Shown here piece by piece: positions 288 through 39,577 of a stretch of DNA of 39,577 bases. This DNA is from Rhodoferax ferrireducens. Lineage in GTDB: Bacteria; Pseudomonadota; Gammaproteobacteria; Burkholderiales; Burkholderiaceae_C. How positions within the stretch are numbered: position 1 is the stretch's first letter; each line of letters opens with the position of its first letter. The position numbers were made by a program, and so were the translations under genes. The notes beneath the pieces were generated by a model, which saw only the letters and a list, made by a program, of their open reading frames with translations, did not search any database and had not been told where the DNA came from. Location: NCBI RefSeq assembly GCF_003347515.1, contig NZ_QEII01000227.1, positions 1 to 39,577 of the forward strand, in the 5' to 3' direction.

Positions 288-1598
288 ATGTATTTTGACG
301 TGCGTGCAGCAAAGCTTTTAAAGGCCGGCGAACACCTGGTGATCGACGGGTGCCCGGGCCTGCGCCTGGTGGCATCCGTCAGCCGCAAGACCTGGACCTA
401 CCGCTACAAAGCCGTGGCCGACGGCCGCATGAAGCAAGTCGCCCTCGGGCAGTGGCCCACGACGAGTGTGCAGACGGCTGCAACCCAGTGGCAAACCCTG
501 CGCGAACAGCGCGGCGAGGGTGCCGACCCGGTGACCGAGCGCAAAGCACAGCGCCAGACCCAGCAGGGCGACGGCGCTGCAGCTGCTGTGTACACCGTGC
601 GCCGGCTGGTGGATGACTACATCAGCGGCCACATCGAGCCCGGTCGCAAGGCCGCCGGCGCCCTGGCCGCCACACGCTCACTGCGCGCCGTGCTGGATGC
701 CGACCCGGACTTTGCCGACAAGCCGGCCGCAGCCATCAACCGGGCCGCCGCCTTCACCGTTTTGGACGCCCGAAAAGCTACGCCGACGGCCGCCCAAAAG
801 CTACGCTCGCTGCTGGGCGGGGCCTGGGATTACGCGCTGGATTCGGGCCAGCTCGACGGCGACGTGCCCAACTGGTGGCGCCAGGTCATGCGAGGTCGCC
901 TGAAAAGCAAGGGCAAGATTGTGGGCGGTGAGCATGTCGGCCAGCAACGCCGCGTACTGCCGCCGGCCGAGGTGGCCACGCTGTTGGCCTGGCTGCCCAA
1001 CATGCACGCACTGGGCTGGGATACCACTGCGATGTACCTGTGGACCTGTGCCCGGGGTAGCGAGATTCTGGGCATGCGGCCCGAGCACGTCGCCACCGAG
1101 GCCGAGGTGCTGTGGTGGACCGTGCCCAAGGCCCAGACCAAGAATGACCGGCACGCGCTGGCCGTAGATCTGCGGGTGCCGCTGTTTGGCCAGGCGCGGG
1201 CGATCGTGCAGCGTCGGCTGGCCTCGGTGGGCGAATCTGGCTGGCTGTTTGAGGATGCCCGTGGCGAGCAGTACGAGCAAAAAGACTTTTCGACCTACAT
1301 CAACAGCCTGTTTGCTGGCTCGTCAAAGGACAAGCGCCGCCAGTCCGAGGGTTTGATCTTGCCCATGGCCCACTGGACGCCGCACAATCTGCGCCGCACC
1401 GGGCGCACGTTGCTGGCCCAGCTGGGTTGCCCCAATGAAATCGGTGAAGCCATCATCGGCCACATGCCAGAAAACATTGTGGGGACGTACAACGCCTACA
1501 CCTATGACGCCGAGCGCCTGCATTGGCTGGGCCAGCTCTCAACCTATTTGAGCGGGCTGGCACCGGCCGATCAATCCGGCTTGCCGGCTCTGCCGTAG
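288..1598 (+). CDS. int: Tyrosine-family site-specific integrase
   Basis: This 436-residue protein has the layout of prophage integrases with an N-terminal DUF4102-type arm-binding domain (about residues 1-90), a central SAM-like core-binding domain (about 100-220) and a C-terminal catalytic domain. Visible catalytic residues are R256 in CARGSEILGM, a lysine near 281-285, H366 and R369 in HNLRR, H392 in GHMPENIVGTY and the nucleophile Y401. It should catalyse recombination between attP and the tRNA-Gly gene that it abuts. The reading frame stays open upstream, but ATG 288 fits the family's usual start (MYFD). It is the only rightward gene of the left arm and converges on the excisionase-like gene, overlapping it by 28 bp. 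Confidence 0.95.
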   Translation: MYFDVRAAKLLKAGEHLVIDGCPGLRLVASVSRKTWTYRYKAVADGRMKQVALGQWPTTSVQTAATQWQTLREQRGEGADPVTERKAQRQTQQGDGAAAAVYTVRRLVDDYISGHIEPGRKAAGALAATRSLRAVLDADPDFADKPAAAINRAAAFTVLDARKATPTAAQKLRSLLGGAWDYALDSGQLDGDVPNWWRQVMRGRLKSKGKIVGGEHVGQQRRVLPPAEVATLLAWLPNMHALGWDTTAMYLWTCARGSEILGMRPEHVATEAEVLWWTVPKAQTKNDRHALAVDLRVPLFGQARAIVQRRLASVGESGWLFEDARGEQYEQKDFSTYINSLFAGSSKDKRRQSEGLILPMAHWTPHNLRRTGRTLLAQLGCPNEIGEAIIGHMPENIVGTYNAYTYDAERLHWLGQLSTYLSGLAPADQSGLPALP

Positions 1599-1822: not shown

Positions 1823-2148
1823 TCCGGGTCTCCAATTCTTGGGTATTTATGTTTGGTGAATTCCGGAAACGCCATTTCGAGCAGGTGGTGCGCTGCGCTG
1901 CGATCAATGGAGTCCTTCACACGCCGCTGTGCCACGCGCACGAGGAGGTCCAGATCAAAGTGGAGACCACCCGGCAACTCGTGCAGCTCGAAGCGGGTAG
2001 TCAGCTCCCGGATATCGTTGCTGTCTGTCAGCCAGCGGGTGACGTCGAGCCGGGGTGGTTGATCGACCTGGCAGTGCAGGGTGAACTCGGTGACGTTGCG
2101 GCCGACCTGCAGCATTTCGCATAGTTTGCGATTGAGGTCTTTGCTCAT
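1819..2148 (-). CDS. Hypothetical phage protein, coupled to the DGR reverse transcriptase
   Basis: A 109-residue soluble protein with no recognised motif, rich in charged residues and ending with a basic segment. Its start overlaps the reverse-transcriptase stop and its stop overlaps the start of the excisionase-like gene, both as ATGA, so the three are almost certainly translationally coupled. Position suggests an early phage gene rather than a DGR component, but a role in retrohoming cannot be excluded. Confidence 0.75.
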   Translation of the reverse strand: MSKDLNRKLCEMLQVGRNVTEFTLHCQVDQPPRLDVTRWLTDSNDIRELTTRFELHELPGGLHFDLDLLVRVAQRRVKDSIDRSAAHHLLEMAFPEFTKHKYPRIGDPE

Positions 2149-3296
2149 TTGGATGTATTCCTATAAATCTTGGTGAAATCGCCCTTGACCGCATGCCCGC
2201 GCCAGCGCAATACGTTGGCAAGGTCGGCCCGGTCGGTGTGGCTGTGGCTGGCTTGCCGCAGCAGCCCTAAATAGCTATTGCCCGCGGTGAAAACCTCATC
2301 CGCCGGCATGGTGCGCAAGCGGCTCACGGCCGTGGCTACTGTCCGTTTTCGCGTAGTCCGGTTCCATGGCTTGATGACATGCCCGACAAAGTCAATGCCG
2401 CGCGCTATGGGCTGCAAAATAGTTTTTGTCGGGTTCAGGTGCGCGCCGAGGCGCTCAGGCAGCCAGGCTTCAAAGCGCTTCAGCGCCGCGTGCAGCCACT
2501 GGGGCGACTCGTGCAGCAACACAAAGTCATCGACGTAGCGCACGTAGTGCCGGGCCTTGATCTGGTGCTTCGCGAACTGGTCCAGCGCGTCCAGATGCAC
2601 ATTGGCGAAAAACTGGCTGCTCAGGTTGCCGATCGGCAGGCCGGTGTCCGGCGGCGCATTGAATAAACTCTTATGTGCGGGCACCTTGGCCAGCAGGTCG
2701 GCCCGGCCGCGCAGCTCGACATTGGTGCGCGGGTCGTGCATCAGGATGGTGTCGGCCAGATCCATCCACCAGCCCGCCGGCACTTTGCGGGCGATCTGTG
2801 CGCGAAGCACGTGCTTGTCGATCGCCACGAAGAAGTTTGACAAGTCGAGCTTGAGGTAAAAGGCCGGGCGGCTCCAGTTCTGCGTGATCGAGCGCACGTC
2901 GGCTTCCAGTCGCTGGGCCGCATACAAGGTGCCGCGCCCGGGAATGCAGGCGCTGCTGCCAGCGACAAATCCCGCGTGAAAGCGCGGTGCAATCTGGTTG
3001 TGCAGCAGGTGGTGCACGATGCGGTCTCTAAAATCCGCCGCCCACACCTCGCGCAGCTTGGGCCGGGTCACGACAAAGCAGGTGCTGCGTCCCGGGGTGT
3101 AGGTCTGGCTCAGAAGCTCGGCGCGAAGCGCGCACAGGTTTTGCTCGGCGTGCGCCTCAAATGCCTGCGCGCTGGCGCTTTGGCGCTTGTGGCGACGGCA
3201 GTCCAGCCAGGCTTGCACCAGGTCTGCCATGGTGAAGGGTGGGGCAACAGTCGGTGCTGGCGGCTCGTCGTGGGTGGGGAAGAGGTCAAGGGTCAT
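2145..3296 (-). CDS. DGR-type reverse transcriptase
   Basis: A 383-residue reverse transcriptase, the usual size for diversity-generating retroelements. Visible motifs in order are YLKLDLSNFF with catalytic D151, GLPIGNLSSQFFAN at about 219-232 (the SQ-bearing motif typical of DGR enzymes in place of the usual QG), RYVDD with catalytic D256-D257, and GIDFVGHVIKP. It should copy the TR transcript into cDNA with errors opposite adenines, together with Avd. Start ATG 3296 overlaps the stop of the upstream PAPS-reductase-like gene and has an AGGA site. A further in-frame start at 3338 lies inside that gene and is less likely. Its stop overlaps the next gene's start. Confidence 0.96.
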   Translation of the reverse strand: MTLDLFPTHDEPPAPTVAPPFTMADLVQAWLDCRRHKRQSASAQAFEAHAEQNLCALRAELLSQTYTPGRSTCFVVTRPKLREVWAADFRDRIVHHLLHNQIAPRFHAGFVAGSSACIPGRGTLYAAQRLEADVRSITQNWSRPAFYLKLDLSNFFVAIDKHVLRAQIARKVPAGWWMDLADTILMHDPRTNVELRGRADLLAKVPAHKSLFNAPPDTGLPIGNLSSQFFANVHLDALDQFAKHQIKARHYVRYVDDFVLLHESPQWLHAALKRFEAWLPERLGAHLNPTKTILQPIARGIDFVGHVIKPWNRTTRKRTVATAVSRLRTMPADEVFTAGNSYLGLLRQASHSHTDRADLANVLRWRGHAVKGDFTKIYRNTSK

Positions 3297-4057
3297 GCTG
3301 TGTATTCCTGCTCTGCCATTTCGCAGAAGAAGCTGCACGACGGGAGTGCCTCATTGCGAATAAGAGGGCCAGCCGGAAGATCGTGAAGCGGAAATCTTTG
3401 ATCTTTGAGTGGGCCTGAGCGATAGCGAAGGATGTAGGCCCCAGGCCCTATCTCCGCTTCAATATCGGCTAATTCTTTGAATTCGGCTGGGTAGTCCTCT
3501 CGGATGCCTCGGAAGTAGCCTTCTCCACCTTTGACGCATCCGATGCAATTAGCGTTCTCATAACCCTGCTCGTACATGAATGGCAATTTCAATCCGGCGC
3601 GCTGCACCATGGCTTTGCAATCTTCCTTGGTCAGCCCTTTGTCGATCAGCGGCGCAATGACTGGGCGGTCTGGATTGCGCTCGCGGAAGTCATCAAGGCG
3701 GTCCGATTCTTCGGCGGTGTAGCCAAAGACCATGACGTCGCCAGGCTGCTTCCATGCGTCCAACAGCTTGCGCTTCAACTCCATTGAACACGGCGCACCT
3801 CTTCTGCTCTTGATGAACTGCTTACGCCTGAAAACCTCGATCACATCAGCGCCATATTTCACGTCACGCAGCATAGTCATTGGGCGACCGAACCACGTTT
3901 CGCAGTCGGTAGCAAATCGCCGGTTGTCAGGATGTTCGTTCTTCAGAAAAGCATTGATGATCTGCACGTCGTGGCTTGCGCCGAACTCAGCAAGCGTCAA
4001 TTTGGTGGCAACCGCCGAAGCGGCGCCGCATGAAAATTGACAGACGATGCGTGTCAT
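3293..4057 (-). CDS. PAPS-reductase-like (PP-loop ATPase family) phage protein between TR and RT
   Basis: A 254-residue protein of the phosphoadenosine-phosphosulfate reductase / adenine nucleotide alpha-hydrolase-like family common in phages. The N-terminal CQFSCGAASAVATK is a PP-loop, though the canonical SGG reads SCG. A cysteine cluster NCIGCVKGGEGYF lies at about 170-182. The real substrate of such phage proteins is not known. It starts only 27 bp downstream of TR, with AAGGGG before ATG 4057, and its stop overlaps the reverse-transcriptase start. Any TR-RNA spacer needed for cDNA priming would therefore overlap this coding region. The VR-type reading frame through TR runs in frame into this ATG but has a stop just upstream of TR. 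Confidence 0.85.
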   Translation of the reverse strand: MTRIVCQFSCGAASAVATKLTLAEFGASHDVQIINAFLKNEHPDNRRFATDCETWFGRPMTMLRDVKYGADVIEVFRRKQFIKSRRGAPCSMELKRKLLDAWKQPGDVMVFGYTAEESDRLDDFRERNPDRPVIAPLIDKGLTKEDCKAMVQRAGLKLPFMYEQGYENANCIGCVKGGEGYFRGIREDYPAEFKELADIEAEIGPGAYILRYRSGPLKDQRFPLHDLPAGPLIRNEALPSCSFFCEMAEQEYTA

Positions 4058-4365
4058 ATGGCGGCCCCTTGAGGGAATGAATCCGCGGAAGGCACGAACC
4101 CGATGCCCGTTGTCCTTGTTGTTCCAGTTCGAGTTGCCGTTCTCAAAGTCCTGGACGAAGGCGTTGTTGCGCGAGTTCTGCGATTTTTCGAGCTATCTAC
4201 ATCGCCGGGCCGAAGGCTTTCGCCGATCAGCCCAGTAACTGCGCCGGACCATAGCGCGAGCTGTTGCGGCTCGCCGGTCTCCGTGTTGCGCATGGCGGTG
4301 GGCTTGTGGCCCAGCGGCTCGACCGGATTCATTAAACGCACGGGCATGATGGCCTTGACCGTCAT
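4054..4365 (-). CDS. Possible small ORF coupled to avd and running through TR
   Basis: A 103-codon frame whose ATG overlaps the avd stop as ATGA. The first 60 or so residues look protein-like (MTVKAIMPVRLMNPVEPLGH). It then reads through TR in a frame different from that of the VRs, giving a low-complexity Arg/Thr tail. It may be a real coupled gene, a translation-control device over the TR RNA, or chance. No homolog is recognised. Confidence 0.35.
   Translation of the reverse strand: MTVKAIMPVRLMNPVEPLGHKPTAMRNTETGEPQQLALWSGAVTGLIGESLRPGDVDSSKNRRTRATTPSSRTLRTATRTGTTRTTGIGFVPSADSFPQGAAI
4085..4182 (-). repeat. DGR template repeat (TR), 98 bp
   Basis: On the minus strand the repeat runs from CGCAG (4182) to CCTTCCGC (4085). 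It contains 26 adenines, 18 of them in nine AAC codons of the VR reading frame. AAC mutagenised at both adenines (NNC) gives 15 amino acids and never a stop. The last 24 nt (from GGGCATC) are identical in TR and all VRs. Homology to the VRs ends abruptly on both sides. Confidence 0.96.
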
Positions 4366-4736
4366 ACAGCAGGCGCTGCGGAAAGATTGCCCAGGGTCTG
4401 CTTGCGCCAGCCGCCGGCTTGGGCGCCGACAGCGTCCAGCAGCTCGACCGAGCGGGCCCAGAGCTTGGGTGAGATCAGCCGCTTGTCATGGCTGACGCGC
4501 AGCATGGCGGTGGTGGCGCGCAGGTGCTGCAGCAGGGTATCGAGCTGCTCAACCCGATCACCACCGCGCGAAGCATTCGCCATGGCCATCGACTCCAGCA
4601 TGTCCACGCACTTGACGTGGATTTTTTCGCCCAGGCTGCGCTTGAACATGCGCGGCATCTGGACCTGGACGTCCAGCGCCAGCGACAACAGGTCGCAGCC
4701 GTGTTTGTAAATAGGGAGTTCGGTGTAAATGGCCAT
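4362..4736 (-). CDS. avd: Avd, accessory variability determinant of the DGR
   Basis: A 124-residue, largely helical protein of the four-helix-bundle Avd / 23S rRNA intervening-sequence-protein type: YKHGCDLLSLALDVQVQMPR, then KIHVKCVDMLESMAMA, RVEQLDTLLQHLRATT and a basic C-terminal region (SHDKRLISPKLWARS). Avd proteins form pentamers that bind the reverse transcriptase and TR RNA and are required for mutagenic cDNA synthesis. Its place between the last target gene and TR is the classical one. ATG 4736 is chosen over an upstream in-frame TTG at 4742. No clear ribosome site is seen because the start directly follows the T-run of the VR1 hairpin. Confidence 0.88.
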   Translation of the reverse strand: MAIYTELPIYKHGCDLLSLALDVQVQMPRMFKRSLGEKIHVKCVDMLESMAMANASRGGDRVEQLDTLLQHLRATTAMLRVSHDKRLISPKLWARSVELLDAVGAQAGGWRKQTLGNLSAAPAV

Positions 4737-4740
4737 GGTC

Positions 4741-4769
4741 AAAAAAATTCGCGGACCGGCTTGCGCCGG
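4741..4769 (-). terminator. Hairpin + T-run downstream of target 1 (VR1)
   Basis: On the minus strand CCGGC-GCAA-GCCGG (4769-4756, a GNRA tetraloop) is followed 8 nt later by seven T (4747-4741). The stem lies about 46 bp beyond the VR1 end. It resembles a Rho-independent terminator, but equivalent hairpins follow all three VRs, as expected for the hairpin/cruciform that stimulates target recognition in phage DGRs. Confidence 0.65.
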
Positions 4770-4794
4770 CGGGTTGTCAAAAGTGTTTAAGTGC

Positions 4795-5325
4795 TCAAGG
4801 ATTCAAGTGAACCCAGCGGAAGGCACGAACCCGATGCCCGTTGCCCTTGCTGTACCAGCCCGAGACGCCGTACTCAAAGTCCTGGACGAAGGCGATGTTG
4901 CGCGAGTACTGCGTGCTGCTCCAGTACCAGCCCTCTTTGTTGAAGTGCTGCGGTGCGTAGATGTAGGCCATCAGCAGATCGTGCCGGCTGGGCAGGTGGA
5001 AATCGGTATGCCCATCAGCGGTGTGGGCGGCGGCCCAGGCGGCGGCCGGGTGGTCCTTCCCGGTAGCCAGCAGGGCAGCGGTATTGCTTGGGCCATCCAG
5101 TTGGCTGCAGGCGCCTGGCACGTCAAGGGAGGGGCCGAACAGCAAATCTTCAGCTTCGGTGTCGCTTGCAATCAGGTGGCGGGCAGCCAGTCCCAACGAG
5201 GCGGCAATCGTGCAGATGTAGCGTCCACCCTGGCCCGGCCAGTACTCGCCATGGGCTGGCGGGGTGTTGGTCTGTGTGATGATGGCCGGTGCGGTAGCGG
5301 TGGCAGTGGCAGTGGAAGTTGTCAT
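4795..5325 (-). CDS. DGR target protein 1 (variable DUF1566/C-type-lectin-fold protein)
   Basis: A 176-residue protein with no signal peptide. An N-terminal low-complexity Thr/Ala segment (residues 2-20) is followed by a DUF1566/formylglycine-enzyme-like domain: GEYWPGQGGRY, DGHTDFHLPSRHDLLMAY, GWYWSSTQ. The C-terminal variable repeat covers about residues 138-170. Variable positions relative to TR give Tyr, Ile, Val, Gly and Ser. It is closely related to target 3 in its constant region. Domains of this kind display the variable residues on a lectin-like ligand-binding face. A GAGG site precedes ATG 5325. The ligand and location (virion or lysogen) are unknown. Confidence 0.9.
   Translation of the reverse strand: MTTSTATATATAPAIITQTNTPPAHGEYWPGQGGRYICTIAASLGLAARHLIASDTEAEDLLFGPSLDVPGACSQLDGPSNTAALLATGKDHPAAAWAAAHTADGHTDFHLPSRHDLLMAYIYAPQHFNKEGWYWSSTQYSRNIAFVQDFEYGVSGWYSKGNGHRVRAFRWVHLNP
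4816..4913 (-). repeat. Variable repeat 1 (VR1)
   Basis: 98 bp aligned to TR without gaps. It shows 10 substitutions, all at TR adenines (for example AAC to TAC, ATC, GTC, GGC, AGC and GAC to GGC). All non-adenine positions are identical to TR. Confidence 0.96.
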
Positions 5326-5344
5326 AGGTGATCCTCGTAAAAAT

Positions 5345-5375
5345 AAAAAAATCGCGGACCGGCGCGCACGCCGGT
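5345..5375 (-). terminator. Hairpin + T-run downstream of target 2 (VR2)
   Basis: On the minus strand the perfect 7-bp stem ACCGGCG/CGCCGGT with loop TGCG (5375-5358) is followed after 6 nt by seven T (5351-5345). It is the second of three equivalent post-VR hairpins and sits just before the ribosome site of target 1. Confidence 0.65.
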
Positions 5376-5381
5376 GAAGGG

Positions 5382-5897
5382 TTAAGTGTTCAGGAGCTCA
5401 AGTGGAATCCGGCGGAAGGCACGAACCCGATGCCCGAGGTCCTTGATGTCCCAGCCCGAGAAGCCGTCCTCAAAGTCCTGGACGAAGGCGTTGTCGCGCG
5501 AGAGCTGCGTACTGGTCCAGTACCAGCCCTCTTTGCTGAAAAGCTCGGGCACGTTGGCGGCGGCAGAATTCAATTCGCCCAGCGCGGGCAGGTAGAAGTC
5601 GGTGTGGCCGTCGATGCTGACCTCGCGCACGCGCAGGGCGGCCGGGCCGTTGGCCAGCACCATGGCGGCGGTGTTGGCCTGGCCATCGGTGCGGCTGCTG
5701 GTTCCGGGCACGTCGACACCGTATTCGCCCCAGGTGACTGATTCAATTTCGCCGACGGCGGCATCGGATACCAGCAGGGCGTAAGGTGGCTGCTGCACGC
5801 CGTCAACGGTGGGGCCGCGCAGGATGGCGGCAAAGATGCCGCCCTGGCCGGCAATGACGGCGCCGAAGGCGGGCAGGGTGAAGCTGTTTTGGGTCAT
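5382..5897 (-). CDS. DGR target protein 2 (variable DUF1566-like protein)
   Basis: A 171-residue protein with the same domain plan as targets 1 and 3 but a more divergent body: GAVIAGQGGIFAAIL near the N-terminus, then DGHTDFYLPALGELN and GWYWTSTQ. Its variable repeat covers about residues 130-162, followed by the constant tail RRIPLELLNT. It lacks a signal peptide. ATG 5897 has an AGGA site 7 nt upstream; a TTG at 5903 is a less likely alternative. The divergence suggests that it is an older duplicate with a different fixed scaffold but the same diversifiable surface. Confidence 0.9.
   Translation of the reverse strand: MTQNSFTLPAFGAVIAGQGGIFAAILRGPTVDGVQQPPYALLVSDAAVGEIESVTWGEYGVDVPGTSSRTDGQANTAAMVLANGPAALRVREVSIDGHTDFYLPALGELNSAAANVPELFSKEGWYWTSTQLSRDNAFVQDFEDGFSGWDIKDLGHRVRAFRRIPLELLNT
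5412..5509 (-). repeat. Variable repeat 2 (VR2)
   Basis: 98 bp aligned to TR without gaps. It shows 12 substitutions, all at TR adenines (AAC to CTC, GAC, TTC, GGC, ATC). All other positions are identical. Confidence 0.96.
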
Positions 5898-5919
5898 GGA
5901 CAAGTCCTATTGGTGGGTG

Positions 5920-5948
5920 AAAAAATCTCGCGAACCGGCTGCGCCGGT
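5920..5948 (-). terminator. Hairpin + T-run downstream of target 3 (VR3)
   Basis: On the minus strand the 6-bp stem ACCGGC/GCCGGT with a 3-nt GCA loop (5948-5934) is followed by six T (5925-5920). It is the third of the equivalent post-VR hairpins, about 38 bp past the VR3 end. Confidence 0.65.
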
Positions 5949-5955
5949 CAAGGGT

Positions 5956-6567
5956 TTAAGTGTTCAAGGGCTCAAGTGGAATCACGCGGAAGGCACGAAC
6001 CCGATGCCCGCTGCCCTTGCTGTACCAGCCCGAGTAGCCGTCCTCAAAGTCCTGGACGAAGGCGCTGCTGCGCGAGCCCTGCGTGCTGGTCCAGTAATCG
6101 CTGCTTGTCTTGAAAATCTGCGGCGCGCAGATATGGCTCATCACCAAATCCAGCTTGGCGGGCAGGAAAAAATCAGTGTGGCCATCGGCGCGGTAGGCGC
6201 GGGCCCACTTTGCGGCTGGGTGGCTTTCGCTGCAGGCGCACAAGGCGTCGGTATTGGCGGCGCCGTCAATCTGGCTGGTGGCGCCTGGCACGTCGATGCT
6301 GGGCCCGAACTTCAAATCCTCGGCTTCGCCATCCCCGGCGATCAAATGGCGCGCTGGCATGCCAAGCAGTGCCGGCAGGGTGCAGAGGTAGCGCCCGCCC
6401 TGGCCGGGCCAGTACTCGCCCATGGCGGGCGGGGTGGGGGTGTCCGTGGGCTTGACGAGGGGCGCGGGCGTAGCGCCCGTCTCCTGTGTGCGCAGGAAAT
6501 CCAGCAGCGCTTTGGATTTGCTGCACAGCTCCAGGGTGACGGGCAGGGTGATAGGTGTGAGTAGCAT
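5956..6567 (-). CDS. DGR target protein 3 (variable DUF1566/C-type-lectin-fold protein)
   Basis: A 203-residue protein. Its N-terminal 50 residues (MLLTPITLPVTLELCSKSKA and a Pro/Thr-rich linker) are unique to it; the rest closely matches target 1 (GEYWPGQGGRY, DGHTDFFLPAKLDLVM, DYWTSTQ). The variable repeat spans about residues 162-194, followed by the constant tail RVIPLEPLNT shared with target 2. There is no signal peptide. It is the first and longest of the three tandem targets. No clear ribosome site is seen before ATG 6567. Confidence 0.9.
   Translation of the reverse strand: MLLTPITLPVTLELCSKSKALLDFLRTQETGATPAPLVKPTDTPTPPAMGEYWPGQGGRYLCTLPALLGMPARHLIAGDGEAEDLKFGPSIDVPGATSQIDGAANTDALCACSESHPAAKWARAYRADGHTDFFLPAKLDLVMSHICAPQIFKTSSDYWTSTQGSRSSAFVQDFEDGYSGWYSKGSGHRVRAFRVIPLEPLNT
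5986..6083 (-). repeat. Variable repeat 3 (VR3)
   Basis: 98 bp aligned to TR without gaps. It shows 12 substitutions, all at TR adenines (AAC to GGC, AGC, GAC, TAC and GAC to GGC). All other positions are identical. Confidence 0.96.
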
Positions 6568-6792: not shown

Positions 6793-7268
6793 GCCGCGGC
6801 CCTCATTGCTTTGCCGCCCAGGGCCCGGATGCGGTCCATTTGCACCAGGCTCCAATAAGCAGCTTTTACGGCGATGCCATGGCGGTCAATGTCGATCAGG
6901 CCGTCCATGATGTGCGCCGCCGCCTTGGCCACGCACAGCTCCGGCCCACTGAAGCCGACGCGCCCGGTGGTGCGAAAGCGGGCGATCACGCTGGCGTAAA
7001 TGTCAAGCTGCTCGGACATGGCGGCCACCGCCTCGGGCGTGAACTCGGTGCCGTCCTCTGTCTGCAGGCGCATGATCTGGCTGTAGGTGTAGCCGGTCTC
7101 GATCCAGTCCCACAGGTCGCCGGTGGTGGCGCTGCCGTCGGTGAAGCGGCCGATCAGATCCCAGTGGATGATCTTGGCATCCAGGCATTGGGTCGCCGCC
7201 AGCTTGGGCCGCCAGAATTTGGGCGTTGGGCCGATGTAGGGACGTTTCGTCGGGATGCTGGTTCTCAT
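6789..7268 (-). CDS. Hypothetical early phage protein
   Basis: A 159-residue soluble protein beginning MRTSIPTKRPYIGPTPKFWR, a basic Pro-rich start followed by a mostly helical body (LWDWIETGYTYSQIMRL). The start overlaps the methyltransferase stop (ATGA). The pattern is familiar from Burkholderiales phages, where such a gene often neighbours methyltransferases, but no function is known to me. Confidence 0.78.
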   Translation of the reverse strand: MRTSIPTKRPYIGPTPKFWRPKLAATQCLDAKIIHWDLIGRFTDGSATTGDLWDWIETGYTYSQIMRLQTEDGTEFTPEAVAAMSEQLDIYASVIARFRTTGRVGFSGPELCVAKAAAHIMDGLIDIDRHGIAVKAAYWSLVQMDRIRALGGKAMRAAA

Positions 7269-8179
7269 GCTTGACTCCTGATGGCGTTGATGACGTCGCG
7301 CGCCACCGGCGGGCACACGGCGTTGCCCAGCATGTGCAAGGCATCTTTGTGTTTCTTTGGCAGTAGGTAGCTATCCGGGAAGCCCATTGCGCGGCGGCAT
7401 TCCTGGGTACTGAGCATGCGCATGCGGTCACCATCGACAAGGGCCCATCGGTCCCGCGTCGTCACAGTTCCAAGCGGCCGGCTCAGGCAGCGCCCGGTAA
7501 GTCCGGACCCGCTCCCGTAGTAGGGCATGACAAAGCGAGAGCCGTGCGCGATACGTCCACAGGCAACTCGCGCCCGGGTCGCACCAGACCGGCCCGGCTT
7601 GTCGATGGCCGACCAGCGCCCGGCGTCAAAGTCGATGATGCTGGCGCTTCCAACATGCTCGCGGCTTGGAAATACCAGCTCAATTGGGTGCTTGGTTTGC
7701 GTGCCAACAACAAACAGGCGGCGCCGGTGCTGCGCCACGCCATGGTCAGCGGCATCGAGAATCATCGGCTGCAGTGCGTAGCCCAAGGCGTTCATTGCTG
7801 CGCACCATGCCGGGTACAAGGTCCATGTTGCGAACTCGGGCACGTTTTCAATCAGTACCATGGCAGGCCGGTGGCACTCGGCCGCGCTCACAACAGCCCA
7901 TGCCGTTGAGCGCTGCGCGTCATGGTGCGCCCGGTCTTTACCTCGGGCCCGACTGTGGCCCTGACATGCCGGTGAGGCCATCAGCAGGTCGTGCGCCGGT
8001 ACTTGCGTCCAGTCGGCTTGCTGCAGGTCTTGGCAGGCATGCGCTGCGCCGGGGTGGTTGAGCAAGTGCACATCAACTGCGGCTTGCCAGTGGTTGGCCG
8101 CCCAGACCACATTGCAGCCCGCCATTTGCGCGCCCGTGCTGAAGCCGCCGGCACCGGCGAACAGATCGATCGCCTTCAC
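7265..8179 (-). CDS. DNA (cytosine-5) methyltransferase
   Basis: A 304-residue C5-cytosine methyltransferase. Motif I is DLFAGAGGFSTG (residues 5-16, SAM binding). Motif IV is SPACQGHS with catalytic C72; the usual PPC reads PAC. Motif VI is ENVPEF (111-116), motif VIII is QHRRRLFVVG (about 150-159), then a short target-recognition region and motif X GNAVCPPVA. It probably protects phage DNA from host restriction or modifies early DNA; no endonuclease partner is adjacent. GTG 8179 is chosen because motif I starts 4 residues later, GAGGTGG precedes it, and it overlaps the upstream stop as GTGA. Confidence 0.92.
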   Translation of the reverse strand: MKAIDLFAGAGGFSTGAQMAGCNVVWAANHWQAAVDVHLLNHPGAAHACQDLQQADWTQVPAHDLLMASPACQGHSRARGKDRAHHDAQRSTAWAVVSAAECHRPAMVLIENVPEFATWTLYPAWCAAMNALGYALQPMILDAADHGVAQHRRRLFVVGTQTKHPIELVFPSREHVGSASIIDFDAGRWSAIDKPGRSGATRARVACGRIAHGSRFVMPYYGSGSGLTGRCLSRPLGTVTTRDRWALVDGDRMRMLSTQECRRAMGFPDSYLLPKKHKDALHMLGNAVCPPVARDVINAIRSQA

Positions 8180-8445
8180 GCCGCCACCTCGCCCGCACTG
8201 CGGTAGATCAGTTGCTCGCCGATTCGGCTTGGCAGTGCCTGGTGGTTGTCGGCGCCGGGGCGCGTGGCTGGTGCGCCCAGTTCGTCGCCGCGGTAACTGT
8301 CTGGCGTGTTGGAGTTGCAAATCTTCACGCCGGTCGCCAGCGCGCTGCTGTGCTTGCGCGCATCTGCGATCTGCTCCCGGTTGAGCTTCTGCGTGCGGGC
8401 ATAGATGCGCCCGGGCAGGCCTTGCGTATTGTGGGTTTCGCTCAT
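8176..8445 (-). CDS. Hypothetical early phage protein
   Basis: An 89-residue protein starting MSETHNTQGLPGRIYARTQK, with a basic first half and a second half rich in polar residues. Start and stop both overlap their neighbours (ATGA with the membrane-protein gene, GTGA with the methyltransferase). Function not recognised. Confidence 0.72.
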   Translation of the reverse strand: MSETHNTQGLPGRIYARTQKLNREQIADARKHSSALATGVKICNSNTPDSYRGDELGAPATRPGADNHQALPSRIGEQLIYRSAGEVAA

Positions 8446-37641: not shown

Positions 37642-39276
37642 TCACGACTCCAGCGATTTTGCGCCGTTCGGGAGTTGCATTGCGTTGGCGTCAGTGGCGG
37701 GACTCCAGTTGAGCCGAAAGACGCTGACCACCTTCGCCAGCCTCGCCGCTTGCGCATTGAGACTTTCCGCAGCGGCGCTGCTTTCCTCTACCAAGGCTGC
37801 ATTTTGGAGCGTGACCTGATCAATGCGGGAGACAGCGTCGCTGATCAGGCTGATGTCACGGTATTGCACTGAAGTGGCACTGTGAATTTCGCCAATGAGT
37901 TCGTTGACGCGTTGAACCTGTTTGACGATTTCATGCATTGACAGACCGGCATCGTTCACTTGGCGAGCGCCAGCTTCGACTTTTCCCACGTTATCGCCAA
38001 TCAGTTTCTTGATTTCCTTGGCGGCATCGGCCGAGCGATGGGCGAGTGATCGAACTTCACTGGCCACAACGGCAAATCCGCGTCCCTGTTCGCCGGCGCG
38101 GGCTGCTTCCACGGCCGCATTGAGCGCCAGGATATTCGTCTGGAACGCAATGCCGTCGATGACGCCTGTGATGTCGCTGATCGTCCTGGAGGATGTGGCG
38201 ATCCCCTGCATGGTGGCGACCACTTCGGCCACCGCGTTGCCTCCTGCAGTTGCCGAGGTCGAAGCGCTCGCGGCTAATCGGTTGGCCTTGTCTGCGATGT
38301 CCGCATTGTGTTTGACGGTACCGGTCAGTTGCTCCATCGACACCACGGTTTGCTGCAAATCGCTGGCTTGCTCTTCAGTCCGATGGCTCAGATCCGAATT
38401 GCCCGTGGCGATCTCTGCAGACCCGGTCGCGATGCTGTCGCTGCTCTGGCGTACTTCCCCCACCAATCTGGCCAGACGTTCACGCATGGTTGCCATGGCG
38501 GCCATGACACTGCCGCTGTCATCTGCTTTGGTGTGAACCGTCATGCTCAGGTCGCCTTCCGCAATGGCCAGCGCGATGCGTGCCACCTCGGCAGGTTCAC
38601 CGCCCATTTGGCGCGCAATAGAACGAACGACGATGATGGCGGCACCGATACCCACCACCAGGGCCACGCCGCAGGCAATGGCCAGCAACAGGAGAGAAAG
38701 GTGGAAGATGGTTGTCCCATTTTGGGTGAGCTGGCTGGCAATGGCCGACTTGAATTCCCATTCCTTGTCGATGGCGAGGGCGGTGGCCTTGAACAATCTT
38801 TCGGATTTTCCGGTGAAAAGTCTGCGTGCTTCTTCTGTCCTGGACGGATCGGCCAATGACTCACGTGAAATGACTTTGAGTTTGTCCCAGTTGGCCATGG
38901 CCAGGCTGGCCGTTGACATCACGTTCTTCCAAAGCTCCCGGTCTTCCTCGCCCGTCAGCAGCTTCTCGTGTTCTGCGAGGGCCGCATTGAGTTGGGTGCC
39001 CGCTTCTGCGATTGCGGTCTCCAGCGTGGTCATTTCGTCACCGGAGACGGTCATGAGGTGTTGGGCCTGCAGCATCCGGATCGCAGCCACCTTAGCTTGC
39101 CATGACCTGACGGCCTGCAAAGAGGGCGTCGTATTGGCCGTGTAATAGTCCAGCGCGCCATGGATGGCACTGATTTGTTTGGCCGCCATGCCGGCGATGC
39201 CCATCAGCATGACCAGCAGCAGACCAAAGGCCCAAGCAAGCCTCGTACTTAGCTTCATTTTCGCTAAAAAATTCAT
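37642..39276 (-). CDS. Methyl-accepting chemotaxis protein (host)
   Basis: A 544-residue chemoreceptor. Two membrane segments are visible: TM1 at about 13-33 ([20 protein letters not shown]) and TM2 at about 188-215 ([20 protein letters not shown]). Between them lies a helical periplasmic four-helix-bundle-type sensor. A HAMP domain follows (about 215-270), then the coiled-coil signalling domain with the conserved tip [20 protein letters not shown] and [20 protein letters not shown], which contacts CheA/CheW. No NWETF-type CheR/CheB tether is seen at the C-terminus. The ligand is not readable. ATG 39276 has AAGGAA upstream; an earlier ATG adds 26 atypical residues. It lies 53 bp downstream of the dehydrogenase gene on the same strand. 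Confidence 0.94.
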
Positions 39277-39329
39277 GTTCCTTGCTCCATGCGCATATTT
39301 CAGGCGATGCTGATTTGCACCGGATGCTG

Positions 39330-39577
39330 TTACTTCAAGATATCGCCCACGCACAGGTATTTGATCTCCACATAGTCATCGATGCCATGATGCGAGCCTT
39401 CGCGGCCGAGTCCCGACTGCTTGACGCCGCCAAACGGCACGTGCTCGCTGGCCAGGATGCCGACGTTGATGCCGACCATGCCGTATTCCAGCGCCTCGCT
39501 GACGCGGAAGATGCGCCCAACGTCGCGGCTGTAGAAATAGCTGGCCAGGCCGAACTCGGTGTTGTTGGCCGCATCAA
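39330..39577 (-). CDS. gabD: Succinate-semialdehyde dehydrogenase-type aldehyde dehydrogenase, C-terminal end (partial, host)
   Basis: The frame enters from the right edge and ends at TAA 39332-39330, giving the last 81 residues. [40 protein letters not shown] and [20 protein letters not shown] are the C-terminal signature of NAD(P)-dependent succinate-semialdehyde/glutarate-semialdehyde dehydrogenases (GabD type). The N-terminus and catalytic Cys/Glu lie outside the window. The symbol is given by similarity; a related aldehyde dehydrogenase cannot be ruled out. Confidence 0.85.

Follow-up and report, generated by a model that had tools for sequence, protein, structure and literature searches.

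A 39,577-nt stretch of Rhodoferax ferrireducens DNA (contig NZ_QEII01000227.1 of assembly GCF_003347515.1, hereafter the window) carries a predicted diversity-generating retroelement (DGR) within a prophage. On the minus strand, which is the coding strand of the cassette and of all features below unless stated otherwise, the order is target 3, target 2, target 1, avd, an RNA of the RT-15 family, the template repeat (TR), a PP-loop gene and the gene for the reverse transcriptase (RT). The RT (2145..3296, 383 aa) is matched by RVT_1 and phrog_1423 and contains the motifs IGNLSSQ at position 222 and YVDD at position 254, the first of which conforms to the [IVL]GxxxSQ motif of DGR RTs, so that the enzyme is of the DGR type. 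Although many RT models match this protein, the best of them is a general one and no equivalog scores above its cut-off; accordingly, assignment to a defence system was rejected. The accessory gene avd (4362..4742 from a TTG start, with an ATG at 4736) is assigned by Pfam bAvd (42.4 bits against a cut-off of 40) and by phrog_3206 (Avd); the NCBIfam Avd model scores 45.1, below its cut-off of 80.

Adenine-specific substitutions in three variable repeats

The TR (4085..4182) and the variable repeats VR1 (4816..4913), VR2 (5412..5509) and VR3 (5986..6083) are each 98 nt long and align without gaps, exactly as proposed in a previous sequence-only reading of this DNA. That reading also held that the repeats differ only at adenines, and the recount bears this out: the TR comprises 26 adenines and 72 other positions, and all 34 substitutions (10, 12 and 12 in VR1, VR2 and VR3, respectively) fall on coding-strand TR adenines, with none at the 72 other positions, i.e., 0 of 216 non-adenine sites across the three VRs. 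If changes were placed uniformly, the chance of such a pattern would be about 5e-23. All 34 changes affect the first or second base of a codon, and in each case the encoded amino acid is altered (8, 8 and 10 residues in VR1, VR2 and VR3). A DNA search of the 6.87-Mb genome (324 contigs) recovered the TR and the three VRs and nothing else. Given that the VRs differ from the TR solely at template adenines, the RT likely rewrites the C-terminal regions of all three targets.

The same signature is widespread among relatives of this element. RT-based searches, with the best 80 matches of each of two queries retained, yielded 160 loci, and adenine-biased repeat pairs were detected in 153 of the 161 sources (these loci and the window). 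With two more RT queries and seven loci from PP-loop queries, 321 loci were examined, among which, after exclusion of duplicated loci and of 16 loci where no TR was found, 234 were distinct and contained a TR among the matches listed; these are referred to below as the listed loci. In a pool of 135 distinct locus sets, again with duplicated loci dropped and with 285 VRs that align over 85 nt or more, 3634 of 8960 TR-adenine sites were changed versus 136 of 20616 other sites. In three loci, adenine-biased VRs are separated from their own TR by about 6.8 to 9.6 kb (L009:1085-1194, L113:329-420 and L133:527-620).

Several targets under one template are ordinary for this DGR lineage. One, two, three, four and five VRs were identified in 22, 163, 44, 4 and 1 of the 234 listed loci, respectively; thus, at least two are present in 212, even though upstream DNA is truncated in some of them. 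Within the first set, where at least 3 kb of upstream sequence is available, only 4 of 112 distinct loci have a single VR. The notion that the multi-target arrangement is uncommon thus has to be abandoned, all the more so as multi-VR DGRs have been published: in the available portions of the respective papers, several VRs are reported for 271 of 948 DGRs (PMC6642488), parallel diversification of a protein family is proposed (PMC3521204) and two-target phages are described (PMC10743442).

The three targets have been described in the same reading as distinct DUF1566-like proteins with VRs at their C-termini, a description that is accurate only in part. Target 1 (4795..5325, 176 aa), target 2 (5382..5897, 171 aa from the ATG, with a TTG start at 5903) and target 3 (5956..6567, 203 aa) all match phrog_4245 and are similar to Pfam Lcl_C, the later name of DUF1566. 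The targets are paralogs, however, with target 2 and target 3 showing 46% and 63% identity to target 1, respectively. The VRs encode residues 138-170 of 176 (VR1), 130-162 of 171 (VR2) and 162-194 of 203 (VR3); hence, they are close to the C-terminal end, but 6 to 9 residues follow each of them. An AlphaFold2 model of target 1, built from a 40-row alignment, has a pLDDT of 94.3; its best PDB match in Foldseek is the C-terminal domain of the Legionella protein Lcl (E 8.2e-6, TM 0.49/0.63), and among viral models it resembles several phage DUF1566 proteins. As modeled, target 1 would therefore combine a C-type-lectin-like fold with a C-terminal VR, as is typical of DGR targets.

Each VR is followed by a GC hairpin: one with a 5-bp stem 46 nt past VR1 (4756..4769), one with a 7-bp stem 36 nt past VR2 (5358..5375) and one with a 6-bp stem 37 nt past VR3 (5934..5948). 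A run of T lies a few bases beyond each of the three. In the relatives, hairpins of at least 6 bp follow 231 of 498 VRs versus 35 expected from shuffled sequences; under this 6-bp rule, the VR1 hairpin falls short. In targets of the type known from Bordetella phage BPP-1, a stem-loop lies directly 3' of the VR. A terminator scan called none after the targets, the hairpins included; its two terminator-like sites are both on the opposite strand, compared with a mean of 6.2 in shuffles.

The RT-15 RNA and the junction between template and reverse transcriptase

The region immediately 5' of the TR (4181..4378) is a full-length match to the Rfam family RT-15 (RF03018), a predicted structured RNA, with a score of 183.9 bits against a covariance-model cut-off of 82, and the match ends at the TR start. 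RT-15 scored above the cut-off in 19 of the 20 other loci tested (9 of 10 and 10 of 10), the only miss being L164, from a cyanobacterial metagenome-assembled genome. RNAalifold analysis of 20 sequences, some of them closely related, predicted 50 pairs, 32 of these with two-sided changes, a count made without a shuffle control.

The association also holds when the search starts from the RNA. Scanning viral contigs with the RT-15 core motif produced at least 120 loci, partly overlapping the RT-derived set; among the 120 matches listed, a related RT is encoded downstream in 112, and each of the 8 others has less than 400 nt of downstream sequence. The RT is within 450 nt in 111 of the 112, the one more distant case being the window's own phage. 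A TR/VR pair was detected in 100 of the 112; of the 12 remaining loci, 8 have less than 1.2 kb of upstream sequence. Given the related RT downstream in 112 of the 120 loci, RT-15 is best read as the 5' part of the DGR RNA in this lineage. A search of 369 genomes of the class, in which filtering was strict and only a few candidates from each genome were scored, found RT-15 in the window's own genome only. Elsewhere in that genome there is a second, weak RT-15-like match (G000 C324:231944-232081; 29.1 bits, below the 82-bit cut-off).

The abutment of RT-15 on the 5' edge of the TR is one of two less usual features of this DGR, the other being a gene between the TR and the RT. In 229 of the 234 listed loci, the distance from the TR end to the RT core is 8-79 nt. 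The remaining five, the window and four others, contain a gene at this position: three encode PP-loop proteins, one a queuine-transferase-like protein and one a small ORF. In the window, the ATG of the next gene is 27 nt from the TR end. This gene (3293..4057) encodes a 254-aa PP-loop protein resembling 3'-phosphoadenosine-5'-phosphosulfate (PAPS) reductases; the Polaromonas jejuensis phage L085/L008 has another PP-loop protein of at least 356 aa, to which the PP-loop insert of L256 is 62.5% identical; L319 encodes a queuine tRNA-ribosyltransferase-like protein (phrog_887) together with a small ORF; and the insert of L031 is a small ORF. The RTs of L256 and L319 share 98% protein identity and yet their inserts differ, indicating turnover of the genes at this site. 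Because L256 was first found with a PP-loop query, the proportion of inserts that are PP-loop genes is biased upward. PP-loop genes of the same two types are also present downstream of the DGR RT in four loci (L027:4534-4938, L073:9514-10491, L403:5157-6092 and L440:5173-5916).

The PP-loop protein of the window is strongly matched by phrog_424 (E 1.4e-51) and by a PDB chain named PptA (21fy_C, E 3.3e-60), and its predicted structure resembles TtuA/NcsA tRNA thiolases, PAPS reductases and LarE (best E 2.0e-5, TM about 0.4-0.5). It had no match in Pfam or NCBIfam, the PADLOC SspD model hits it weakly (29.5 bits), and a literature search for PptA returned no paper. The PP-loop motif of PAPS reductases is SGGxDS; the insert of L085 has SGGKDS, whereas the window protein has SCGAAS. 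Identification as a CysH-type PAPS reductase is not supported, given this motif, the lack of Pfam and NCBIfam matches and a fold that is similar at most. In the host family, the gene has matches in 7 of 399 genomes including the window's own, counted regardless of DGR context.

With regard to the surroundings, the cassette had been assigned to a prophage, and the gene content, that of a tailed phage, substantiates this: in addition to the RT, Avd and the adenine signature, the window contains a tyrosine integrase (288..1598, plus strand) beside a tRNA-Gly (1-74), as well as terminase, portal, head protease, tape measure, tail protein and endolysin genes. The position of the tRNA-Gly next to the integrase at the left end suggests an attachment site; no second copy of it turned up at the other end of the window in a repeat search based on 20-nt seeds. 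Upstream of the targets, and in their orientation, lies a gene for a C5-cytosine DNA methyltransferase (7265-8320), and a 570-aa protein of phrog_8572, which has no assigned function, is encoded at the right end (37642-39354, minus strand).

Proposed mechanism and alternative explanations

Taken together, these sequence data make it very likely that the window harbors a prophage DGR in which a single TR guides the RT in rewriting the domains, predicted to be lectin-like, at the C-termini of three paralogs, probably with a translationally coupled leader, short RNA signals 3' of the template and a cargo PP-loop gene. Under this scheme, the RT and Avd would copy the RT-15/TR RNA into adenine-mutated cDNA that would replace each VR, and either the virion or the cell would display the targets. 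The RNA signals for copying would be confined to RT-15 and the TR plus no more than 27 nt of sequence after it, rather than lying in a long 3' spacer as in BPP-1. Ribosomes that have translated avd would reach the RT across the template region by coupled re-initiation, which would allow a gene to enter the junction without silencing the RT.

The reading frames in this region suggest how such passage might occur. In the window, a 103-aa leader ORF (4054..4365) runs through RT-15 and the TR, and ATGA overlaps join the avd stop to the leader start, the leader stop to the PP-loop start and the PP-loop stop to the RT start; given these overlaps, the four reading frames are probably translationally coupled. 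Of the 227 listed loci without an insert (two loci without a nearby Avd match were left out, and relatedness was not controlled for), 110 have an RT frame that stays open all the way from the avd stop to the RT core, across RT-15 and the TR, compared with 0 and 6 for the other two frames, and 121 have no in-frame ATG, GTG or TTG between the TR and the RT core. All five insert loci have a leader free of stop codons between the end of avd and the end of the TR, with an ATG at offsets of -3, -3, 0, -13 and -13 relative to the final base of the avd stop; the leader ends on the ATG of the insert in the window, L085/L008 and L031, and continues in frame into the insert in L256 and L319.

The alternative that the leader is an accident of base composition and RNA conservation, with the RT initiating independently, is the most serious one, and we regard it as possible albeit doubtful. 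It would be compatible with the closure of the leader in many loci and with the slight excess of third-position substitutions within it, but does not readily account for the preference for the RT frame over the other two, for the loci that lack an in-frame start or for the behavior of the leader at all five inserts. A functional protein product of the leader is not supported, the substitution pattern being unlike that of a protein.

Several observations count against the scheme as a whole and are best considered together. The leader frame is closed before the RT in 117 of the 227 loci, and it is open to the RT in none of the 64 loci obtained with a Pseudomonas RT query (L119; loci L119 and L392-L470). 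An in-frame ATG, GTG or TTG lies between the TR and the RT core in 106 loci, so that coupling is not the sole route to RT initiation. Over 24 disjoint pairs, substitutions by codon position number 95/104/131 in the leader versus 140/91/590 in the RT, and the frame counts are uncorrected for relatedness. The Lcl_C scores of the targets are under the curated cut-off (E 1.7e-6 for target 1). Finally, DGR activity is predicted from the sequence pattern, and turnover of the VRs is not observable in the host lineage because the genus offers no close relative of the cassette: none was found among 89 genomes including the window's own, and the best-scoring RT match in the 88 others is 44%. As for the closed loci, the TR contains an in-frame ATG in 104 of the 117. 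In the Pseudomonas-query loci that were inspected, the first in-frame ATG codons fall within the TR itself.

A different concern is that the cassette could be a relic, its VRs frozen since earlier rounds and the RNA connecting the TR and the RT broken by the inserted gene. This is suggested by the unusual separation of the two elements, the insert placing the RT about 0.8 kb from the TR versus at most 79 nt to the RT core in nearly all listed relatives. We nevertheless consider such decay unlikely. None of the 216 non-adenine sites has drifted from the current TR, and at the 7 non-adenine sites that distinguish the window from L006, all three VRs have the base of the window's own TR (7/7). Likewise, in L256 and L319, both of which contain inserts, the VRs appear updated from their own TRs (own-TR base at 7/7 diagnostic sites in 4/4 VRs). 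In addition, neither the RT frame nor the Avd frame is interrupted, and the RT-15 match is full length. A very recent insertion would escape both the drift and the own-TR tests, and would also weaken the 27-nt limit on the 3' RNA.

Equally improbable, in our estimation, is a broader conjecture, namely that the TR-RT junction is an exchangeable slot for nucleic-acid-modifying enzymes, with the template RNA serving as a translated leader that feeds the next gene, and with the sulfur-transferase-like and queuine-transferase-like inserts being made together with the RT and tuning or protecting mutagenic copying. The more limited proposal that the PP-loop gene functions as an accessory of the DGR, altering the chemistry of the template, the cDNA or the nucleotides appears slightly less likely still. 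It is favored by the location of the gene within the RT operon with overlapping codons, and by the composition of the junction inserts, three of the five matching phrog_424 and a fourth belonging to a queuine tRNA-ribosyltransferase family. Against it, inserts are rare (5 of the 234 listed loci and 1 of the 112 listed RNA-derived loci, this being the window's own phage), L256 was retrieved through the PP-loop query, PP-loop genes occur outside the junction in nine other loci, and relatives devoid of a PP-loop insert have the same adenine pattern. We therefore favor the view that the inserted gene is most likely passenger cargo, perhaps involved in nucleic acid modification.

The least likely explanation, gene conversion or duplication following a single mutagenesis event, could be invoked for the five changes that VR1 and VR3 have in common (TR positions 54, 55, 60, 64 and 70) and for the GG at positions 54-55 of all three VRs, but is not needed, given that the same GG recurs in VRs of L007, L008, L009, L010 and L160 and that the agreement between VR pairs of one cassette, at 592 of 1441 co-changed sites (0.411), is close to the 0.398 expected from the base spectrum. 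The window pairs (5/9, 3/8 and 4/9) are inside the range of the relatives, and such agreement fits separate rewriting of each target.

Relation to known systems and implications

The window DGR follows the RT-Avd-TR-VR logic of the DGR of Bordetella phage BPP-1 (brt, avd, mtd), including the adenine-only changes (available portion of PMC12875486), and its RT is 33% identical to brt. In BPP-1, however, one TR/VR pair is described versus the three VRs here, and, according to the same portion of that paper, the spacer 3' of the TR is folded and serves both to recruit bRT-Avd and to prime cDNA synthesis (PMC12875486). The window has 27 nt 3' of the TR and its relatives 8-79 nt, so that no long structured 3' spacer of the BPP-1 type precedes the RT; the conserved RNA family is on the 5' side instead.

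Multi-VR DGRs with DUF1566 and other target families likewise combine one TR with several paralogous targets, and DGRs whose TR overlaps the RT ORF have been described as a class of their own (group 3, PMC3521204); the available portions of these papers (PMC3521204, PMC6642488) mention neither the RT-15 RNA nor a gene between the TR and the RT. Some Clostridium prophages encode both phrog_424 and an RT as separate ORFs (available portion of PMC11318856). The strong similarity of the window protein to phrog_424 proteins and PptA is accompanied by a distinct location, inside a DGR. Among annotated phages, Pseudomonas phage Cruim01 encodes an RT 63.5% identical to that of the window, with RT-15 annotated beside it, and Burkholderia phage Magia encodes one that is 61.5% identical and starts 67 nt from an Avd-like gene; unlike in the window, the annotation of these phages shows no gene between the RT and the RT-15/avd side. 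In the partially available literature, PMC4424553 and PMC11318856 included, we found no report of RT-15 as a DGR RNA or of a gene between the TR and the RT, although a description may already be in print.

The full-length match ending at the TR start ties RF03018 to DGR templates. For BPP-1, the marking of the template, the priming and the end of the cDNA have been described, with the key structure located 3' of the template (available portion of PMC12875486). Placed 5' of the template, RT-15 would be a direct candidate for RT/Avd recruitment or for cDNA termination in this lineage, and the five phages with genes just 3' of the TR set a testable limit on the 3' RNA requirement. Although the arrangement itself has already been described, three paralogous targets under one template may be useful for addressing the question of parallel diversification.

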